DNA of 64,000 nt from positions 4,875,001-4,939,000 of the forward strand of contig NZ_CP120737.1 of NCBI RefSeq assembly GCF_029581195.1. The letters run 5' to 3'. Below, piece by piece: positions 1 to 50,019 of the stretch. Numbering within the stretch: the stretch's first letter is position 1; every line of letters begins with the position of its first letter. The notes under the pieces are model-generated. The model had not been told where the DNA came from. It saw nothing but the letters and a program-made list of their open reading frames with translations, and did no database searches. This DNA is from Solwaraspora sp. WMMD791 (lineage in GTDB: Bacteria > Actinomycetota > Actinomycetes > Mycobacteriales > Micromonosporaceae). Position numbers and translations under genes: made by a program.

Positions 1-2274
1 GACGGCGGGCCGGGCGTCGCTGGCGTCGGACATGACCGCAGCGTATCGACGCCACCCACGACAGCCGATGCGCGGCTGACCCGGATTCGGGAGCTGGCGG
101 CCCACTACACCGCCGCCGACCCGCCGACCCGGCTGGCGCTGCGCGCCGAGATCGGCGTACTCGTCGACCAGCTCGGCCTGACCGGCGGCACCCCGCAGGC
201 GTACGCGCGGTGGGCGCAGCTGCCGCCGGACCTGGCGAACCTGCTGCTGCGGCTCACCTCACCGGCGCTCGCCCCGGAGACCGTACTGGCGGTGCTCGGC
301 GCGGACCCGGCGACGCTGACCGAGCCGCAACGTGCCCAGCAGCGCGACTACCGGGCCCGGCTGGTCCACAACGGGTACGTGCCGTTCGCGCCGCAGCTCA
401 CCGAGCAGCTGCACCGGCTCGTCGTCGACGCCGAGCACGGTCAGCAGAGCCTGCCGACGTTGCCGGCCTCCGCCGGCCAGGTGATCGGGTTGCGCCCGGA
501 TCAGATCGCGCAGCTGCGGGCCGTCGATCCGGCGCTGGCCGCGCGGATCGCCCGCGACGGCGTGTACGTCGACCTGACCGGCCGGGTCGACATCAGCCCG
601 TACGTGTTGGCGAACGCGCCGCAGGTCGACGTGGGCGGCGTACACCCTGGGTTTGACCTGGCGACGGACGCCGGCCGGCGGGCGCTGCTGGCCGAGGACA
701 CCCGCCGGGCGTACGCGACGATCACCGCGACGTACGGGCAGAACCCGGAGGTCGTCCGGCTGCTCGGCAGCCACCGCTTCCACTACCTGGGGCAGAGCCG
801 CACGATGGTGCTGGTCTCGGATGCGCTGACCCGGTCGATCCTCAACCTGGCGCCGAGCGACCCGGTCGGGCCAGCGTCCGCGTCGGCTGAAGCTGCGCCC
901 GAGGCAGCACCGCTCGCCGCCGGTCCGACCGAGATCCACGTGTACGCCGACCACCCCACCCTGCCGGAGCCGGATCCCGGGGAGGTGGCACCGGAGTACG
1001 GCCGCCCGGTGGATCCGCGCTCCGGTGCACCGGCACCCCTGTGGAACGGGCCGCCCCGGCGGGAGCACGTCGCGCAGGGAGCGCTCGGCGACTGCGGCAT
1101 GTTGGCGTCGATCGGTGCGATCGCCGGGCACAGCCCGCAGACGATCGGGCACCTGTTCCAGCCCAACCCGGACGGCACCGTCGATGTCGTGCTGCACGAG
1201 AGCAGCCTCCCCGGTGACCGGACCGCTCCGACCGGGCGACGGTTGCGGATCACTGTGACCCCGGACGTTCCGGTGCACGCCATCATGCCGGGTCAGGCCG
1301 CCTACGCTGACCAGTCGCAGGTGGGGGCGGCGTGGGCGAGCATCCTGGAGAAGGCGCTCGCGGCGGTCGACCGGACCTGGACCGCGTCCCGGCAGGTCCA
1401 CTGGCAACAGCAGTGGCAGGGTTGGCAGGGTCGGACCGATCCGCATCGGGCGGCACCGCTGGGCTACGCCCGGATGAACCCCGGCAGCACCCCGGACCTG
1501 TGGGCGGAGCTGCTGACCCAGCTCACCGGCGAGCCGGCCCGCACCGGGCGGTTCCCCATCGCGCCGGGCAGCGAGCCTGCCGCCGAGGCGACGTTGGCCC
1601 GGCTGCTGGCCCAGGGGAAACCGGTGATCGCCAGCACCAAGCCGCCGGACCGCTACCTGCATCTGCCGAACGGAACACCGCCGTACGGGCTGTATGCCGG
1701 ACACGCGTACGAGGTGGTGGCGGCACAGGGCGGGCACGTCTGGCTGCGCAACCCGTGGAACCATGGCCATCCGCAGCCGATCCCGGTGCGGGCGTTCCTC
1801 GACCTGATGAGCAGGGACTACGCCCACCTGGATCGTGCACCGGTGGTGCCGCCGCCCCCGCCGGTGCCGCCCGTGGCGGAGCAGGCGAGCGGGCCAGGTG
1901 AGTCGATGGCGCAAGCCCGGGTCGGCGGGTCGGCCGGTGTGGCTTCCACCGCGCTGACCGCTGCGGGGCCGGGCCGTACGGTGGTCGACCGGGGCGGCGC
2001 GTACTTCATCTACTACGTGGACCGGGGCCCGGCCGGTGAGCTGGTCCAGTTGGTGGCCGTCGAGGTGGGACCGGACGGGCAGCAGCGGTCGACAGGGTGG
2101 AGCGCTGGTCGGGTCGGTGTGGCGGCACCGCCGACAGCCGGTGCGGTGGCCCCGCTGGCAGCCGGTGCCGAACGCCTGCCGGTGAGCCGGGCGGAGGCTG
2201 AGCAGGTGGCGCGCAGCGAGTGGGGCTTCGAGTTGCCGGACGAGCCGACGCTGCATGAGATGCTCGGTGGCTGA
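1..2274 (+). CDS. Calpain-like cysteine protease / polymorphic toxin, 5' end outside window
   Basis: The reading frame is open from the first base, so the true start lies upstream and at least 757 residues are visible. A papain-fold calpain (peptidase C2) domain runs from about residue 340 to 610 in window numbering. The Cys motif QGALGDCGM places the nucleophile at codon 365, GHAYEV places the His at codon 568, and LRNPWN places the Asn at codon 584; all three calpain landmarks are present. A Pro-rich linker follows, then a short C-terminal domain. The next gene encodes a SUKH-type protein, the usual immunity family of polymorphic toxins, so an exported or injected protease effector is inferred. 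The missing N-terminus would show the delivery module. An intracellular regulatory protease is the alternative. Confidence 0.75.
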   Translation, partial: DGGPGVAGVGHDRSVSTPPTTADARLTRIRELAAHYTAADPPTRLALRAEIGVLVDQLGLTGGTPQAYARWAQLPPDLANLLLRLTSPALAPETVLAVLGADPATLTEPQRAQQRDYRARLVHNGYVPFAPQLTEQLHRLVVDAEHGQQSLPTLPASAGQVIGLRPDQIAQLRAVDPALAARIARDGVYVDLTGRVDISPYVLANAPQVDVGGVHPGFDLATDAGRRALLAEDTRRAYATITATYGQNPEVVRLLGSHRFHYLGQSRTMVLVSDALTRSILNLAPSDPVGPASASAEAAPEAAPLAAGPTEIHVYADHPTLPEPDPGEVAPEYGRPVDPRSGAPAPLWNGPPRREHVAQGALGDCGMLASIGAIAGHSPQTIGHLFQPNPDGTVDVVLHESSLPGDRTAPTGRRLRITVTPDVPVHAIMPGQAAYADQSQVGAAWASILEKALAAVDRTWTASRQVHWQQQWQGWQGRTDPHRAAPLGYARMNPGSTPDLWAELLTQLTGEPARTGRFPIAPGSEPAAEATLARLLAQGKPVIASTKPPDRYLHLPNGTPPYGLYAGHAYEVVAAQGGHVWLRNPWNHGHPQPIPVRAFLDLMSRDYAHLDRAPVVPPPPPVPPVAEQASGPGESMAQARVGGSAGVASTALTAAGPGRTVVDRGGAYFIYYVDRGPAGELVQLVAVEVGPDGQQRSTGWSAGRVGVAAPPTAGAVAPLAAGAERLPVSRAEAEQVARSEWGFELPDEPTLHEMLGG

Positions 2275-2296
2275 ACTCTCGACGGAAAGGGACAGG

Positions 2297-3097
2297 ATGG
2301 TGCCGTCGCACCCCGATGTGCTGGTGATCCGGAACAACACACAGCTGAACATGGGTACGTTCAGCCTCGGTGCCGGTGGGGCGAACCCGCGTCGGCCGGT
2401 GACCGCGCAGATTGTGGTGGCCTACCCCGGGTCCGCCGATTCGACGACGCATCTGCTGCGGCTGGGTGAGACCTTCCCGATCGGTGCCGATTACTGGTAC
2501 TTCGCCGGGGCGCATTTCGAGAACGCCGGCCGGTGGCGGGTGACGGTGCGACGGCTGGGGCCGGGTGAGGTGCCGCCGGTGGTGGACGAGTCGACGGCGG
2601 TGACGGGGTGGCGGCCGGCGCAGCTGCAGCCGTTCGGCCAGCTGGACGAGGCGCGGTTGCAGGCGTTGGAGCAGGCGTTGGGTCGCGAGTTGACGGGCGA
2701 CTACCGCGACTGGCTGGCCGAGACGAACGGGGTGCAGCCGATGGAGCCGCAGTGGGTGCCGGGTGCGCCGTTCACGCTGTTTCCGGGGCGGCCGTTGTTG
2801 GGCGTCCATCCGGAGTATCCGGCGTACGACCTGCTGACCGCGGAGCGGGAGTGGCGGGTCGGGAAGCTGTCGACGGACTTCCTGGTGATCGCCGTACCGA
2901 TGGAGGGTCTGCTGCTGCTGCGGTTGACGGACCCGCATCCGGGGACGGTCGGCTTCCTGCCGAACGATCTGCTGGCCGGCCCCGGTACGCCGGAGGTGGT
3001 CGCCTGGCGGGAGCGGCAGGTGGTCACCACCGGCCTGGGTTGGTCGTTCGGCGACTTCCTCGGCCGACTCACCCCACTCGACGCGCCGACCGCCTGA
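2297..3097 (+). CDS. SMI1/KNR4 (SUKH) family protein, probable immunity protein
   Basis: This 266-residue product has two parts. The first ~95 residues are beta-rich and not confidently recognised. The rest carries the SMI1/KNR4 pattern: an ELTGDYRDWLAETNG helix-turn followed by a hydrophobic strand region ending in VGFLPNDLL. SUKH proteins commonly neutralise polymorphic toxins encoded immediately upstream, and the calpain-like gene ends 22 bp before this start. I chose the ATG at 2297 because GGAAAGG sits 6 nt before it; an in-frame ATG at 2255 would overlap the upstream gene and lacks a visible Shine-Dalgarno. The direct toxin-immunity relationship is inferred from position and family. Confidence 0.75.
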   Translation: MVPSHPDVLVIRNNTQLNMGTFSLGAGGANPRRPVTAQIVVAYPGSADSTTHLLRLGETFPIGADYWYFAGAHFENAGRWRVTVRRLGPGEVPPVVDESTAVTGWRPAQLQPFGQLDEARLQALEQALGRELTGDYRDWLAETNGVQPMEPQWVPGAPFTLFPGRPLLGVHPEYPAYDLLTAEREWRVGKLSTDFLVIAVPMEGLLLLRLTDPHPGTVGFLPNDLLAGPGTPEVVAWRERQVVTTGLGWSFGDFLGRLTPLDAPTA

Positions 3098-45396: not shown

Positions 45397-45852
45397 ATGC
45401 GGCGAATCTGGAGCGGGTTGCTGGCCGGTGCCGCCGGCACCAGCGCCCTCAACATGGTCACCTACCTCGACATGGCCGGGCGGGCCCGGCCGGCGAGCAG
45501 TACGCCGGAGCGCAGCGTCGGCCGGCTCGCCGAAACGTTGCACGTCGACCTCGGTGACGAGCAGACCGCCAGCAACCGGCGGGCCGGGCTGGGGCCGCTG
45601 CTCGGCTACGCGACCGGGCTCGGGGCCGCCGCGTTGTACGCGGTGGCCGGCCCCCGCCGGGCCCCGGTCTGGGCGGCCACCGGGCTGCTCGCGGCGTTGG
45701 CGATGGCTGGCTCGGACGCGCCGATGACCCTGCTCAAGGTGTCGGACCCGCGGCAGTGGAGCGCTGCCGACTGGGCGTCGGACATCGTGCCGCACCTGGC
45801 GTACGGCCTGGTCGCCGCCGCCGCACTGCACCGGCTGCAGCACCGCGACTGA
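45397..45852 (+). CDS. Conserved membrane protein of unknown function
   Basis: A 151-residue protein with about three to four hydrophobic segments: LLAGAAGTSALNMVTYLDM, LGPLLGYATGLGAAALYAV, AATGLLAALAMAGSD and the C-terminal LAYGLVAAAALH. The pattern resembles short actinobacterial membrane proteins seen next to stress genes; no function is known. It stands alone, separated by 190 bp from the divergent transporter gene and by 52 bp from the convergent regulator. Confidence 0.65.
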   Translation: MRRIWSGLLAGAAGTSALNMVTYLDMAGRARPASSTPERSVGRLAETLHVDLGDEQTASNRRAGLGPLLGYATGLGAAALYAVAGPRRAPVWAATGLLAALAMAGSDAPMTLLKVSDPRQWSAADWASDIVPHLAYGLVAAAALHRLQHRD

Positions 45853-45904
45853 CTGCGCGACTGACGACGGACGCCGCGCCGGCGCACGGCGTACCGCCGG
45901 ATTT

Positions 45905-46528
45905 TCAGAGCCAGTCGTGTTCGCGGGCGTAGCGGGCGGCGTCGTGCCGGGTCCGGGTCTGGGTCTTCTGCATCGCGTTGGACAGATAGTTTCGGACGGT
46001 GCCCTCGGCGAGGTGGAGCCGGACGGCGATGTCGGCCACCGAGTAGCCGTCGCCGGTCGCCCGCAGCACGTCGACCTCCCGATCGGTGAGTGGGCAGTCG
46101 TCGATGACGGCGAGCGCCGAGACGTCCGGGTCGACCCACCGCTTGCCCGCGTGCAACGTGGCGATGACCGAGGCGATGTGCGCTGGCTCCGCCGACTTGC
46201 TGACGAAGCCCTGGACGCCGAGCCGGAGCGCCTTCCGGAGCACACCTGGTCGGGCGTGCCGGGTCAGCATCAGGATGACCTGTTCGGGCCGGGTCTGCCG
46301 GATCTGGGCGACGGCGCCGAGCCCGTCCACGCCGGGCATCTCCAGGTCGATGACGAGGACGTCGGGCCGGTGCTGGAGGGTCGCGGCGACGGCCGACGCG
46401 CCGTCGGCGGCCTCGGCGAGCACGGTGATGTCGCCTTCGAGCGGCAGCAGCGCGGCCATCGCCTTGCGCAGCAGCGCCTCGTCGTCGGCGAGCACCACGG
46501 TGGTCGCTGGGGCGTCGGCCTGCGTCAT
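45905..46528 (-). CDS. NarL/DesR-type response regulator, separated from its kinase by a TnpB element
   Basis: A 207-residue regulator with receiver motifs LADDEALLRK, VLVIDLEMPGVDG (phosphoacceptor Asp) and GFVSKSAEPAHI (Lys), and a LuxR-type helix-turn-helix LTDREVDVLRATGDGYSVADIAVRLHLAEGTVRNYLSNAM. It is DesR/LiaR-like and should pair with the kinase at 47837-48994. GGAAGGA about 6 nt before the ATG supports the start. Removing the mobile element would overlap this ATG with the kinase stop (TGATG). It now needs readthrough across, or a promoter within, the element. Confidence 0.93.
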   Translation of the reverse strand: MTQADAPATTVVLADDEALLRKAMAALLPLEGDITVLAEAADGASAVAATLQHRPDVLVIDLEMPGVDGLGAVAQIRQTRPEQVILMLTRHARPGVLRKALRLGVQGFVSKSAEPAHIASVIATLHAGKRWVDPDVSALAVIDDCPLTDREVDVLRATGDGYSVADIAVRLHLAEGTVRNYLSNAMQKTQTRTRHDAARYAREHDWL

Positions 46529-46540
46529 CAGAGTCCTTCC

Positions 46541-47840
46541 GTGGATACTCCGGCCTGCAGGCCGGAGAGGAAACGGAACCCCTGCGGAGCAGGGCAGGGA
46601 TAGCCGATCCGCCGCCAGGGCGGATCGGCGTCCGTCCACACGCCACCGCAAGGCTCACCGGTCGGATTGTTGGACTGTGGACTGTGTCCAGGACCGTGAA
46701 GCGGGCGTTCAGGTACCGCTTCCACCCGACCCCCGGGCAGGCGTGGACCCTGGGTCGGGAGCGGGTCACCTACCACGCCACGTCGGCGATGCTGACCGGG
46801 TGGAAGAAGACCGACGAGTTCGCGTTCCTCAACGACGTCTCCTGCGTCCCTCTGCAGCAGGCGCTGCGGCATCTGCAGGTCGCGTTCACCAACTTCTGGG
46901 CGAAACGGGCCCGGTATCCGTCGTTCAAGTCGAGGAAGCGGTCGCGGCGGTCGGCGGAGTACACCGCGAGCGCGTTCTGCTGGCGCGACGGCCGGCTGAC
47001 CTTGGCGAAGATGTCTGATCCGTTGGACATCGTGTGGTCGCGGCCGTTGCCTGCTGGTGTGGCGCCGTCGACGGTGACGGTGTCGCAGGACGCGGCGGGC
47101 CGTTGGTTCGTGTCCCTGCTCTGCGACGACCGGATCGAGCAGGCCCCGGCCACCACTGCTGTGGTGGGGGTCGACGCCGGACTCGACAGCCTGTTCACCC
47201 TGTCGACCGGGGAGAAGGTCCCCAACCCGGGGCACGAACGCCGCGACCGGGCCGCCCTGGTCCGTGCCCAGGGGAACCTCGCCCGTAAGGCCCGAGGTTC
47301 GGCGAACCGGGCCAAGGCCCGACTGGCGGTGGCCCGGGTTCATGCCCGGATCGCCGACCGCCGCCGCGACCACCTGCACAAACTCACCACTCGGCTCGTT
47401 CGTGAAACCCAAACGATCGTGATCGAGGACCTGACCGTCCGCAACATGATGGCCAATCACAGTCTGGCCCGCGCCATCTCGGATGCGGGCTGGCGGCAGT
47501 TCCGCACCATGTTGGGGTACAAGGCGGACTGGTTCGGCCGGGACCTGGTGGTCGTGGACCGCTGGTTCCCGTCGACCCGGCTGTGCTCCGCCTGTGGTGC
47601 GCTGGCTGACCGGATGCCGTTGACGGTCCGGTCGTGGACCTGCCGGTGCGGGCGGACCCACGACCGGGACGTCAACGCGGCCCGCAACATCCTCGCGGAG
47701 GGGCTCTCCGTGATTGCCTGTGGAGGCGGTGTAAGACCTCACCGGGAGTCCTCCTCTCGGACGGGGCGGTCGTCGGTGAAACAGGAACCCCCTGGGGCGA
47801 CCCAGGGAATCCCCGTCGGTTAGGGCGGGGAGGAAGTCAA
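46541..47840 (+). mobile_element. IS200/IS605-type element with tnpB only, 1300 bp
   Basis: The left end carries two perfect hairpins: CTCCGGCCTGCAGGCCGGAG (46548-46567) and GCCGATCCGCC with GGCGGATCGGC (46603-46613 and 46619-46629). The right end has CCTGGG-GCGA-CCCAGG (47791-47806) and CCCCG...CGGGG (47811-47815, 47826-47830), and finishes in TCAA, which matches the right cleavage site known for IS608. No Y1 transposase gene (tnpA) is present, so mobility needs help in trans. There is no target duplication, as expected. Boundaries come from these features and from the reconstructed empty site; they may be off by a few bases. Confidence 0.8.
46684..47823 (+). CDS. tnpB: TnpB RNA-guided nuclease (IS605 OrfB family), N-terminal internal deletion
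   Basis: A 379-residue protein with a GTG start. RuvC residues are present: Asp164 (VVGVDAGLDS), Glu248 (TIVIEDLTV) and Asp329 (HDRDVNAARNI). The zinc-finger cysteines are in CSACG (301-304) and WTCRCG (320, 322). Compared with my memory of actinobacterial relatives, about 24 residues are missing between PTPGQA (residue 20) and WTLGRERVTY, the segment that normally holds RTFGC-VYN. Family TnpBs are nucleases guided by an RNA from the element's right end. The gap lies in the guide/DNA-recognition part, so activity is doubtful. Confidence 0.9.
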   Translation: MSRTVKRAFRYRFHPTPGQAWTLGRERVTYHATSAMLTGWKKTDEFAFLNDVSCVPLQQALRHLQVAFTNFWAKRARYPSFKSRKRSRRSAEYTASAFCWRDGRLTLAKMSDPLDIVWSRPLPAGVAPSTVTVSQDAAGRWFVSLLCDDRIEQAPATTAVVGVDAGLDSLFTLSTGEKVPNPGHERRDRAALVRAQGNLARKARGSANRAKARLAVARVHARIADRRRDHLHKLTTRLVRETQTIVIEDLTVRNMMANHSLARAISDAGWRQFRTMLGYKADWFGRDLVVVDRWFPSTRLCSACGALADRMPLTVRSWTCRCGRTHDRDVNAARNILAEGLSVIACGGGVRPHRESSSRTGRSSVKQEPPGATQGIPVG

Positions 47841-48994
47841 CGGTCCTCCACGGGTGCTCCGGCCGGCGCACCGGGGCCGGGGCGCGGAAAGGTGGCGGCA
47901 GTCGGGAAGGTCGCGGCGGTCAGGAAACGTCCGTCGGTCTGCTCCACGGTGAGCTCACCGGCGCTGCCGGCCACCCGTTCGCGCAGCGTGGCCAGGCCGT
48001 GCAGCTCGGGTAGCGGGCTGGACGGTGCGCCGTCGTTGACGACGGTGATGCCCGATCCGGTCAGGGTGATCTTCACCTGGGTGGCCTGCGCGTGTCGCAG
48101 GATGTTTGTCGTCGTCTCGCGCAGGACCTGGCCGAGCAGTTCGTCCGCGTGGGTGTCGACCTCGGCCTCGCGGTCGACGTGGACCCGGATGCCGGCGGCT
48201 TCGAAGAGGTTCTTGGCGTTCTCCAACTCGGCGGAGAGGTTGAGTCGCCGCTGCGCGTAGGCGAGTTCCTTGGTCTGTCTGATGGTGTCGCTGACCAGCG
48301 CGTAGATCTCCCGCAACTCGTTGTCGGCCCGGTCGGGGTCGCTGCGGACCAGTTTGCGGGCCAGCGCGATCTTCAGCTTCACCACGTGCAACGTGTGGCC
48401 CTGGATGTCGTGCAGGTCGCTGGCGAACCGGACCCGTTCCCGGATGACGGCCAACTCCGCCTCCCGTCTGCGGGACTCCTGCAACTCCTCGACGACGTCG
48501 TAGAACCGCTTGTTCGGAAACATCAGGCCGGTGATCACCGCGACGGCACCGGCGGGCAGGACGACGTACTGCAGGAGCACGTCGGAGACGCCCTCGGACG
48601 ACACCAGCAGCCGCGTCGCGCCGACCGCCGCGACGTAGCCGACGAGACCGACGGCCGCCGCGGCCCGGTACCGCTTCAGATTGGGGACGACGAGGGAGCC
48701 GGCGAGGGCCAGGCCGTAGGACGCGCGCGGGCTGTCGATCATCAGTACGCCGAGCGGCCAGACGGCGGCGGTGACGATCAGACAGTACGGGGCGAACCGG
48801 GGCAGGTCGCGCGCCGTCCATCGCTCGAAGGCGACCAGCGCCGCGACCACGCCCGAGGCCAGGATGACCGCGTCCCACCAGGTGCGGGAGTCCGCCACCA
48901 CCACGGCAGCCCCGCCGACGGTGAGCGGCGGGACCAACATGACGAGGTTGAGCTTGCGCAGCCGTCGTCGCGTGGGCTCGGTGTGCTCGGGCAT
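47837..48994 (-). CDS. Sensor histidine kinase (DesK/LiaS-like), 3' end altered by TnpB element
   Basis: A 385-residue kinase. Five or so membrane segments lie in residues 20-160. The HisKA_3 motif is RVRFASDLHDIQGHTLHVV (His near residue 207), with an N box of VLRETTTNILRHAQ and a reduced G1 region VVNDGAPS. The C-terminal tail has a duplicated TAATFP. The TGA stop is provided by the mobile element's right end; without the element the tail would end EGL and overlap the regulator start. It is divergent from an ABC transporter, the classic arrangement of Bce/DesKR-type modules that respond to antibiotics or membrane stress. Confidence 0.9.
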   Translation of the reverse strand: MPEHTEPTRRRLRKLNLVMLVPPLTVGGAAVVVADSRTWWDAVILASGVVAALVAFERWTARDLPRFAPYCLIVTAAVWPLGVLMIDSPRASYGLALAGSLVVPNLKRYRAAAAVGLVGYVAAVGATRLLVSSEGVSDVLLQYVVLPAGAVAVITGLMFPNKRFYDVVEELQESRRREAELAVIRERVRFASDLHDIQGHTLHVVKLKIALARKLVRSDPDRADNELREIYALVSDTIRQTKELAYAQRRLNLSAELENAKNLFEAAGIRVHVDREAEVDTHADELLGQVLRETTTNILRHAQATQVKITLTGSGITVVNDGAPSSPLPELHGLATLRERVAGSAGELTVEQTDGRFLTAATFPTAATFPRPGPGAPAGAPVEDR

Positions 48995-49030
48995 CTCCTG
49001 AGTATTCGTCCGGATCCGGGCAGGCCACCA

Positions 49031-49045
49031 GTGACACTACGTCAC
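49031..49045. promoter_or_regulatory. Palindrome in the kinase / ABC transporter divergent gap
   Basis: GTGAC-ACTAC-GTCAC lies 37 bp upstream of the kinase start and 84 bp before the ABC transporter start. A looser GTCA...TGAC pair follows near 49064-49082. These are candidate binding sites of the DesR-like regulator. Confidence 0.4.
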
Positions 49046-49128
49046 GGGTTCACCAGCGGGAATGTCATCGTGAAGTGGTGACACGGCCGCACTGACCGGT
49101 GGGCGCGGTGAGGGCTGGAATTGACGGC

Positions 49129-50019
49129 ATGTCCACCACACCAGTCATCGACGTCGAACGCCTCAACGTCTCCTACGGCGGTTTCCACGCCGTCAAGGAC
49201 CTTTCCTTCCAGGTACGCCGAGGTGAGCTCTATGCCCTGCTCGGCACGAACGGGGCCGGCAAGACCTCGGCGCTGGAGACCATCGAGGGCCACCGTACGG
49301 CGACCTCGGGTGTCGTACGGGTCTTCGGGCGCAACCCCGGCGACCGCGCGGCCGTGCGACCCCGGACCGGCATCATGCTCCAGGAGAGCGGATTCTCCCC
49401 GGACCTCACCGTGCGGGAATCGGTCCGGCTGATCGGCAAGCTCAGCCAGCGGGTCGACCACGTCGACCGGGTGCTCGACCTGGTCGGCCTCACCGGCAAG
49501 GCCGGCACCCTGGTCGCCCAGCTCTCCGGCGGGGAGAAGCGGCGGTTGGATTTCGCCACCGCCGTGTACGGGGCACCAGAGTTGATCTTCTTGGACGAGC
49601 CGACCACCGGCCTGGACATCCAGTCCCGTGACGGCCTGTGGGAGGTCGTCGACAACCTGCGTGCGGACGGCTCGACGGTCGTGCTCACCACCCACTACCT
49701 GGAGGAGGCGCAGCAGCGCGCCGACCGGATCGGGCTGATGCACCAGGGGACCCTGCGCCGGGAGGGGACCGTCGCCGAGCTGACCCGGTCCCTGCCGGCC
49801 GTGATCAGCTTCTCCCTGCCGGCGTCCGTATCGAGTCCGGCGCTGCCGCTGCCGGCCGAGCCGGGCGACGGCGGCGCGGTACGCATCGAGACCCTCGACC
49901 TTCAGCGGGACCTGCACACCCTGCTGCGCTGGGCGCAGGACCACGACGTGGAGCTGCGTGGCCTCGAAGCCGGGCCGACCCGGCTCGACGACGTGTTCCG
50001 CGCCATCGGCACCGACTGA
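49129..50019 (+). CDS. ABC transporter ATP-binding protein
   Basis: A 296-residue ATPase: Walker A GTNGAGKTS (residues ~43-51), Q loop MLQESGF, signature LSGGEKRRL, Walker B ELIFLDEPTTG and H-loop LTTHYLEE. The C-terminal ~80 residues form the extension common in drug/lipid export (DrrA/CcmA-like) ATPases. It works with the permease encoded 53 bp downstream. The divergent DesK-like kinase probably controls it. The substrate is likely a hydrophobic compound or antibiotic; not determinable. Confidence 0.95.
   Translation: MSTTPVIDVERLNVSYGGFHAVKDLSFQVRRGELYALLGTNGAGKTSALETIEGHRTATSGVVRVFGRNPGDRAAVRPRTGIMLQESGFSPDLTVRESVRLIGKLSQRVDHVDRVLDLVGLTGKAGTLVAQLSGGEKRRLDFATAVYGAPELIFLDEPTTGLDIQSRDGLWEVVDNLRADGSTVVLTTHYLEEAQQRADRIGLMHQGTLRREGTVAELTRSLPAVISFSLPASVSSPALPLPAEPGDGGAVRIETLDLQRDLHTLLRWAQDHDVELRGLEAGPTRLDDVFRAIGTD

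Follow-up and report, generated by a model that had tools for sequence, protein, structure and literature searches.

TnpB-only insertion elements lie mostly at host start codons and carry ends that resemble translation signals of the host strand

Introduction

What becomes of two overlapping genes when a TnpB element inserts between them? This question is raised by a locus of Solwaraspora sp. WMMD791, where a sensor kinase gene and a response regulator gene, both on the minus strand, are separated by such an element. Throughout, the window denotes the whole 64,000-nucleotide stretch of DNA that was analyzed. The initial annotation of the window held that the insertion disrupts the pair. We compared the locus with the other genomes of the genus and then with copies of the element elsewhere. 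We put at roughly three in four the probability that it belongs to a TnpB-only family of the IS200/IS605 type that inserts beside (N)TCAT, mostly at start codons, and whose ends look like translation signals when read on the host-gene strand.

Results

The element separates an overlapping gene pair and spares both reading frames

The annotated placement of a TnpB element between kinase and regulator was confirmed in the sequence and by domain matches (Table 1). The kinase was matched in six of the seven genomes of the genus, the window's own included, the sixth sister (G004) giving no match at E <= 1e-60. In all five kinase-bearing sisters (L016-L020) the site is empty and the two genes meet in an ATGA overlap, as in GTG GAG GAC CGA TGA CG, which upholds an insertion of the IS200/IS605 type, without target duplication, that parted an overlapping pair. 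Alignment to the empty sites shifted the left boundary from the annotated 46541 to 46529, with 46530-47841 equally allowed by a one-base C ambiguity; bases 46529-46540 were assigned to the element and not to the host because these 12 bases recur, slightly changed, at the left ends of other copies. The proposed check of relatives therefore succeeded for the empty site and failed for the predicted TGATG junction, which occurs in none of the five sisters.

Table 1. Features of the insertion locus (positions within the window)
Feature	Position	Strand	Remarks
Inserted TnpB element	46529..47840	+	1312 bp from left to right end; missing from five kinase-bearing sisters; ends match other copies
Host target motif GTCAT	46524..46528	+	Complement of ATGAC, the regulator start; present in empty sites; putative TAM
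SD-like GGAAGGA in left end	46534..46540	-	5 nt from regulator ATG; predicted pairing -9.0 kcal/mol
Left-end palindrome	46548..46567	+	CTCCGGCCTGCAGGCCGGAG
tnpB, 379 aa	46684..47823	+	OrfB_IS605 and TNB domains
Right-end GTCAA	47836..47840	+	TTGAC on the gene strand; kinase TGA at 47837-47839; GTCAA also ends other copies
Presumed guide-encoding flank	47841..47860	+	Follows the right end; role and match to the empty site expected from the family
Response regulator, LuxR-type domain	45905..46528	-	Response_reg and GerE domains; start codon at left edge of the element
Sensor histidine kinase, full length	47837..48994	-	HisKA_3 domain, orthologues; stop within the right end

The kinase stop is indeed supplied by the element, its TGA falling inside the right-end GTCAA. 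The three residues that the kinase was thought to have lost are not missing: the protein ends in ..EDR* in the window as in four of the five sisters (..AETP* in L020), the junction codon having changed synonymously from CGA in the empty to CGT in the filled state. The regulator ATG is unaltered by the insertion. Near the kinase C-terminus an AATFP stretch that is single in the sisters is repeated, a small in-frame duplication.

By predicted pairing with the anti-Shine-Dalgarno (anti-SD) sequence, the native regulator leader scores -9.3 kcal/mol vs -9.0 kcal/mol for the leader that the element places there. Given this SD-like leader of near-native predicted strength, the sequence gives no sign of a loss of regulator translation, and the insertion probably leaves both proteins intact and the pair unbroken. 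A loss of tight termination-reinitiation coupling is possible, as is reduced transcription through the 1.3 kb of the element, whose left end holds one weak terminator-like hairpin (46594-46580, minus strand) that precedes the regulator on the gene strand.

The window TnpB matched PF01385 and PF07282 (OrfB_IS605 and C-terminal TNB/zinc-ribbon domains), and the stretches GVDAG, VIEDL and DRDVNAAR, which we take to hold the D-E-D triad of RuvC, are all present, so that the apparent RuvC residues are kept. No tnpA gene for a Y1 transposase was found between the element ends in the window sequence or its open reading frames; TnpB-only copies are usual in the IS1341-like group. The Y1 transposase family PF01797 matched five of the seven genus genomes and not the window strain's own, and from six loci read, the Y1 transposases of the genus were rejected as part of this element. 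The window tnpB lacks about 24 residues found in relatives (translations compared by eye, with a gap in the DNA matches); for this reason, and for want of a Y1 transposase match in its genome, the copy is probably immobile at present.

Five Rfam matches were obtained (E <= 1, window positions 46400-48000), all far below the gathering score, and the element was therefore rejected as a known RNA family; no intron family was among them, which likewise eliminated a group I intron. One of these sub-threshold matches, to HgcC (47704-47849, plus strand; 18.7 bits, gathering 50), covers the tnpB 3' end and the right end, where an omega-RNA would lie. A 447-amino-acid minus-strand frame running through the element (46528-47871) probably reflects chance in GC-rich DNA.

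The same arrangement recurs next to TCAT

The element region was matched 17 times in the strain's genome (6.93 Mb, one contig), a count that includes the window copy; three other copies start with CRGATTCCTTCCGTGGATACT right after TCAT and have GTCAA right ends. An internal left-end pattern, one mismatch allowed, occurred in 41 of 354 genomes of the host's family, including all seven of the genus. From these matches a part, 111 distinct copies, was read (the family set), found with a search pattern that contained CCTTCC. TCAT stands at the left edge in 108 of the 111; removal of five duplicates left 106 sites, 103 with TCAT, 91 of these GTCAT, and exclusion of L063, which has no CAT, left 105. 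Element sizes cluster near 1380 bp, with a second group at about 280-365 bp; the short copies examined share the left end of the others and resemble them at the right end.

For ten further copies, 200 bases of the left flank were searched against the seven genus genomes, and nine had at least one empty orthologue, where the target motif directly adjoins the right flank and is not duplicated. The window and nine of ten further copies thus show insertion 3' of a short motif with no target duplication; L117 was a filled site alone among the loci listed. TCAT was rejected as element sequence, being already present in the empty sites. In the empty alleles of several copies (among them L088, L105 and L120) a native SD is visible, which the element parts from the ATG when the site is filled.

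As a sample not chosen by its left end, we took the best 80 of 310 relatives found by TnpB protein alone (the named set), from Streptomyces, Actinomadura, Micromonospora, Dactylosporangium, Actinoplanes and other genera; their left ends were located partly by a loose match to the family pattern. A recognizable left end was present in 74 of the 80, with NTCAT adjoining in 74 of 74. Six without a recognizable left end with CAT and one duplicate were set aside, leaving 73 distinct sites. Judged from these insertion sites, NTCAT may be the TAM of this TnpB family. In L065, L067, L148, L149 and L151 the left end differs in that TCAT and the SD-like tract are three bases farther apart.

Insertions are enriched at start codons

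Reading away from the element from the left-edge CAT, we scored a frame if it ran for 100 codons or more or met no stop before the available sequence ended. Such frames were found at 83 of 105 family sites vs 95 of 233 control ATGAC sites in the same DNA and window (Fisher p ~4e-11), and, in the named set (best 80 of 310), at 61 of 73 sites (62 with L193 corrected) vs 268 of 681 controls. The arrangement therefore recurs beyond chance.

The frames encode recognizable proteins. In the named set, again the best 80 of 310, a Pfam family is encoded from the edge ATG at 53 of 73 sites (67 scanned, six too short; L160, L169 and L219 only below the curated cut-off), and at 52 named sites the best family starts within the first 15 profile positions; among 22 control sites drawn, 20 were scanned and five matched, one starting that near the profile start. 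By domain, the genes struck include an SdhB-like iron-sulfur protein, ABC transporter parts, a response regulator, a peptidase M55 and short-chain dehydrogenases.

The right end provides a stop codon to the upstream gene

A right-end candidate was available for 78 of the 111 copies, and 56 passed filters for score, size, uniqueness and flank length, three being excluded by hand. At 26 of these 56 sites the frame expected from an ATGA overlap has 100 or more open codons, vs 18 and 11 sites for the other two frames, and at 22 of the 26 the last residue survives the change imposed on its third base. Furthermore, among nine plasmid loci, selected for an annotated CDS that terminates on that strand close to the right end, the upstream CDS ends in the element's right-end TCA in eight. 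These include a tail gene on a Salmonella plasmid and the glucose-1-phosphate thymidylyltransferase genes of three Streptomyces plasmids (L241, L243, L246), in which the element lies between that gene and rfbB. In L246, rfbB is annotated from TTG and the edge reads GTCAA.

The left end carries a conserved SD-like sequence

In the named set (best 80 of 310), 72 of 73 leaders reach a predicted anti-SD pairing of -6 kcal/mol or better (median -9.5), a value attained by 26% of shuffles, 15% of opposite strands and 7% of deeper element segments, the last drawn from both the family and named sets. The first core found in these 73 sites is GAAGG in 28, GGAGG in 28, AAGGA in eight and AGGAGG in three, with others in the rest and none in one; the distance from core end to host ATG is 4-8 nt. 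In predicted pairing the 67 distinct leaders surpass all 300 column-shuffled sets (-9.08 vs an average of -7.37), a test made optimistic by kinship among the copies. Across 56 family sites, the element leader reaches -6 in 53 and the native leader in 29, and the element leader is the stronger at 37, the two being about equal in the window.

A purine tract at the left end could also be read as a recognition sequence for the transposase or TnpB, the start-codon positions being what purifying selection left of the insertions of a TCAT-recognizing element into a gene-dense genome, and the SD likeness incidental. TCAT by itself would be enough as a target motif, and GTGGATAC beside the tract is conserved as well. 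Moreover, copies without a long frame at the edge have equally strong leaders (-9.05, n = 22, vs -9.3, n = 83), so the SD does not track gene presence. Yet the cores vary while anti-SD pairing and the 4-8 nt spacing are kept, and a different IS605 element of the genus, TCAT-independent with the target GCTAC, lacks the tract: its leaders score only -0.6 to -5.6, and an SD-like sequence was absent in six of six loci. The tract is also kept in relics where the native SD is gone, described below. On this evidence we regard an incidental likeness as unlikely.

About as doubtful is an outward promoter in the left end beside the SD, by which the downstream gene would receive both transcription and translation signals. 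Intergenic copies such as L088, L105 and L120 speak for it, as they part the gene from its upstream region as well as from its native SD and the long frames persist; against it, a scan for sigma-70-type promoters, that type alone, gave no match at 45800-49200 of the window.

Related elements in other bacteria and relics before prfA

Among wider relatives, the left edge adjoins an annotated start codon in the copies on Azospirillum, E. coli, Salmonella and two cyanobacterial plasmids, whose leaders score -6.6 to -12.1. In Azotobacter (L283) the start codon stands at the edge and the leader scores only -2.8. By eye, no SD was evident in Bifidobacterium L284 and no TCAT edge in L247, L248, L249, L251, L289 or L290; on the E. 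coli plasmid L294 no evident element edge coincides with the annotated start.

The Salmonella element was matched in 393 of 5426 E. coli genomes, with 345 places chromosomal, and ybhB was the site in two of the four E. coli loci fetched. In L293 a related InsQ/TnpB element (1783-3073) separates bioA from ybhB and abuts the ybhB start codon, and exact empty alleles are found in L297 and L298. There AAGGAGGG precedes the ybhB ATG; in the filled allele the native SD is displaced, this sequence lying at a distance of 1291 bp, and the element puts GGAGG in its place.

In three of the seven genus genomes (L299, L300, L305), a left-end relic with no remaining element precedes the start of a gene that, by its N-terminus, we take to be prfA (release factor 1). 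The SD of the other four genomes (L301-L304), GAAGGAG or AAGGAG, is missing before this gene in the relic genomes, where the leader is weaker (-6.9 vs -8.2 to -9.0). Since the native SD is gone, the relic must serve prfA, provided that the gene is SD-translated in those strains; these relics are the strongest indirect sign that the left end functions.

Discussion

The preferred reading, a family whose ends resemble the translation signals of the genes that it enters, can be set out as follows. A target preference for (N)TCAT, the complement of ATGA, would bring the element to start codons, often to the ATGA stop/start overlaps within operons. The left end would then give the host ATG an SD-like sequence 4-8 nt away in place of the displaced native signal, and the right-end GTCAA, reading TTGA on the gene strand, would offer an in-frame stop to the overlapping upstream gene, usually with a synonymous last codon. 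In the window, the kinase C-terminus and the regulator start would be kept in this way, and ATGA coupling was probably exchanged for initiation at the element SD. Copies that spare genes would survive, and ends resembling an SD and a stop would make insertions cheap. The comparisons establish the element boundaries, the empty sites, the target motif, the enrichment at start codons, the conservation of the SD-like sequence and the position of the stop. Beyond these, ribosomes would use the element SD, transcription would pass through the element or arise from it, and the underlying cause would be selection for low-cost insertion.

The initial annotation had instead proposed that the insertion breaks the translational coupling of kinase and regulator, leaving signaling to the divergent transporter altered or constitutive; the lost ATGA overlap and the hairpin upstream of the regulator fit this, but the kinase keeps every residue, the regulator leader is about native in predicted strength and the identical arrangement recurs at many genes, so that we consider this reading very improbable.

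With IS200/IS605 and IS1341-like TnpB-only elements, the E. coli InsQ type among them, the present family shares TnpB, a subterminal palindrome, insertion 3' of a short motif, absence of target duplication and a TCAA-type right end; it differs in that its target is the start-codon motif NTCAT and its ends carry an SD and a stop on the host-gene strand. Protein and ends thus place it in the known IS200/IS605 family, and the habit of targeting start codons with translation signals in the ends was found undescribed in the open-licence papers searched. In a review of translational coupling (PMC12548453), a term search gave no occurrence of ATGA, AUGA, transposon or insertion sequence. IStrons, which combine a group I intron with an IS605-type element, are likewise selfish elements that spare host genes; they splice out of RNA (PMC4227781), whereas the neutralizing step of the present element would be translational. 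TldR proteins, nuclease-dead TnpB regulators, are similar as TnpB-derived proteins with guides near gene starts (PMC13418256); unlike them, the present TnpB still belongs to a mobile element and has retained its apparent RuvC residues.

On a wider scale, we lean, with less assurance than for the reading above, towards a widespread TnpB clade, spanning Actinobacteria, E. coli, Salmonella, Azospirillum and two filamentous cyanobacteria, that has the ATGA start as its target and an SD and a stop as its ends, is transparent to translation, and can permanently take over the ribosome-binding site of a host gene, prfA included. The natural ybhB polymorphism of E. coli and the prfA relics render the proposal directly testable. 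If true, it would account for the persistence of TnpB-only elements in gene-dense genomes, and would provide a translational counterpart of IStron splicing in the avoidance of harm by a selfish element. The family would also supply host genes with new ribosome-binding sites and, more speculatively, would place TnpB guides beside gene starts, which could favor their domestication as repressors.
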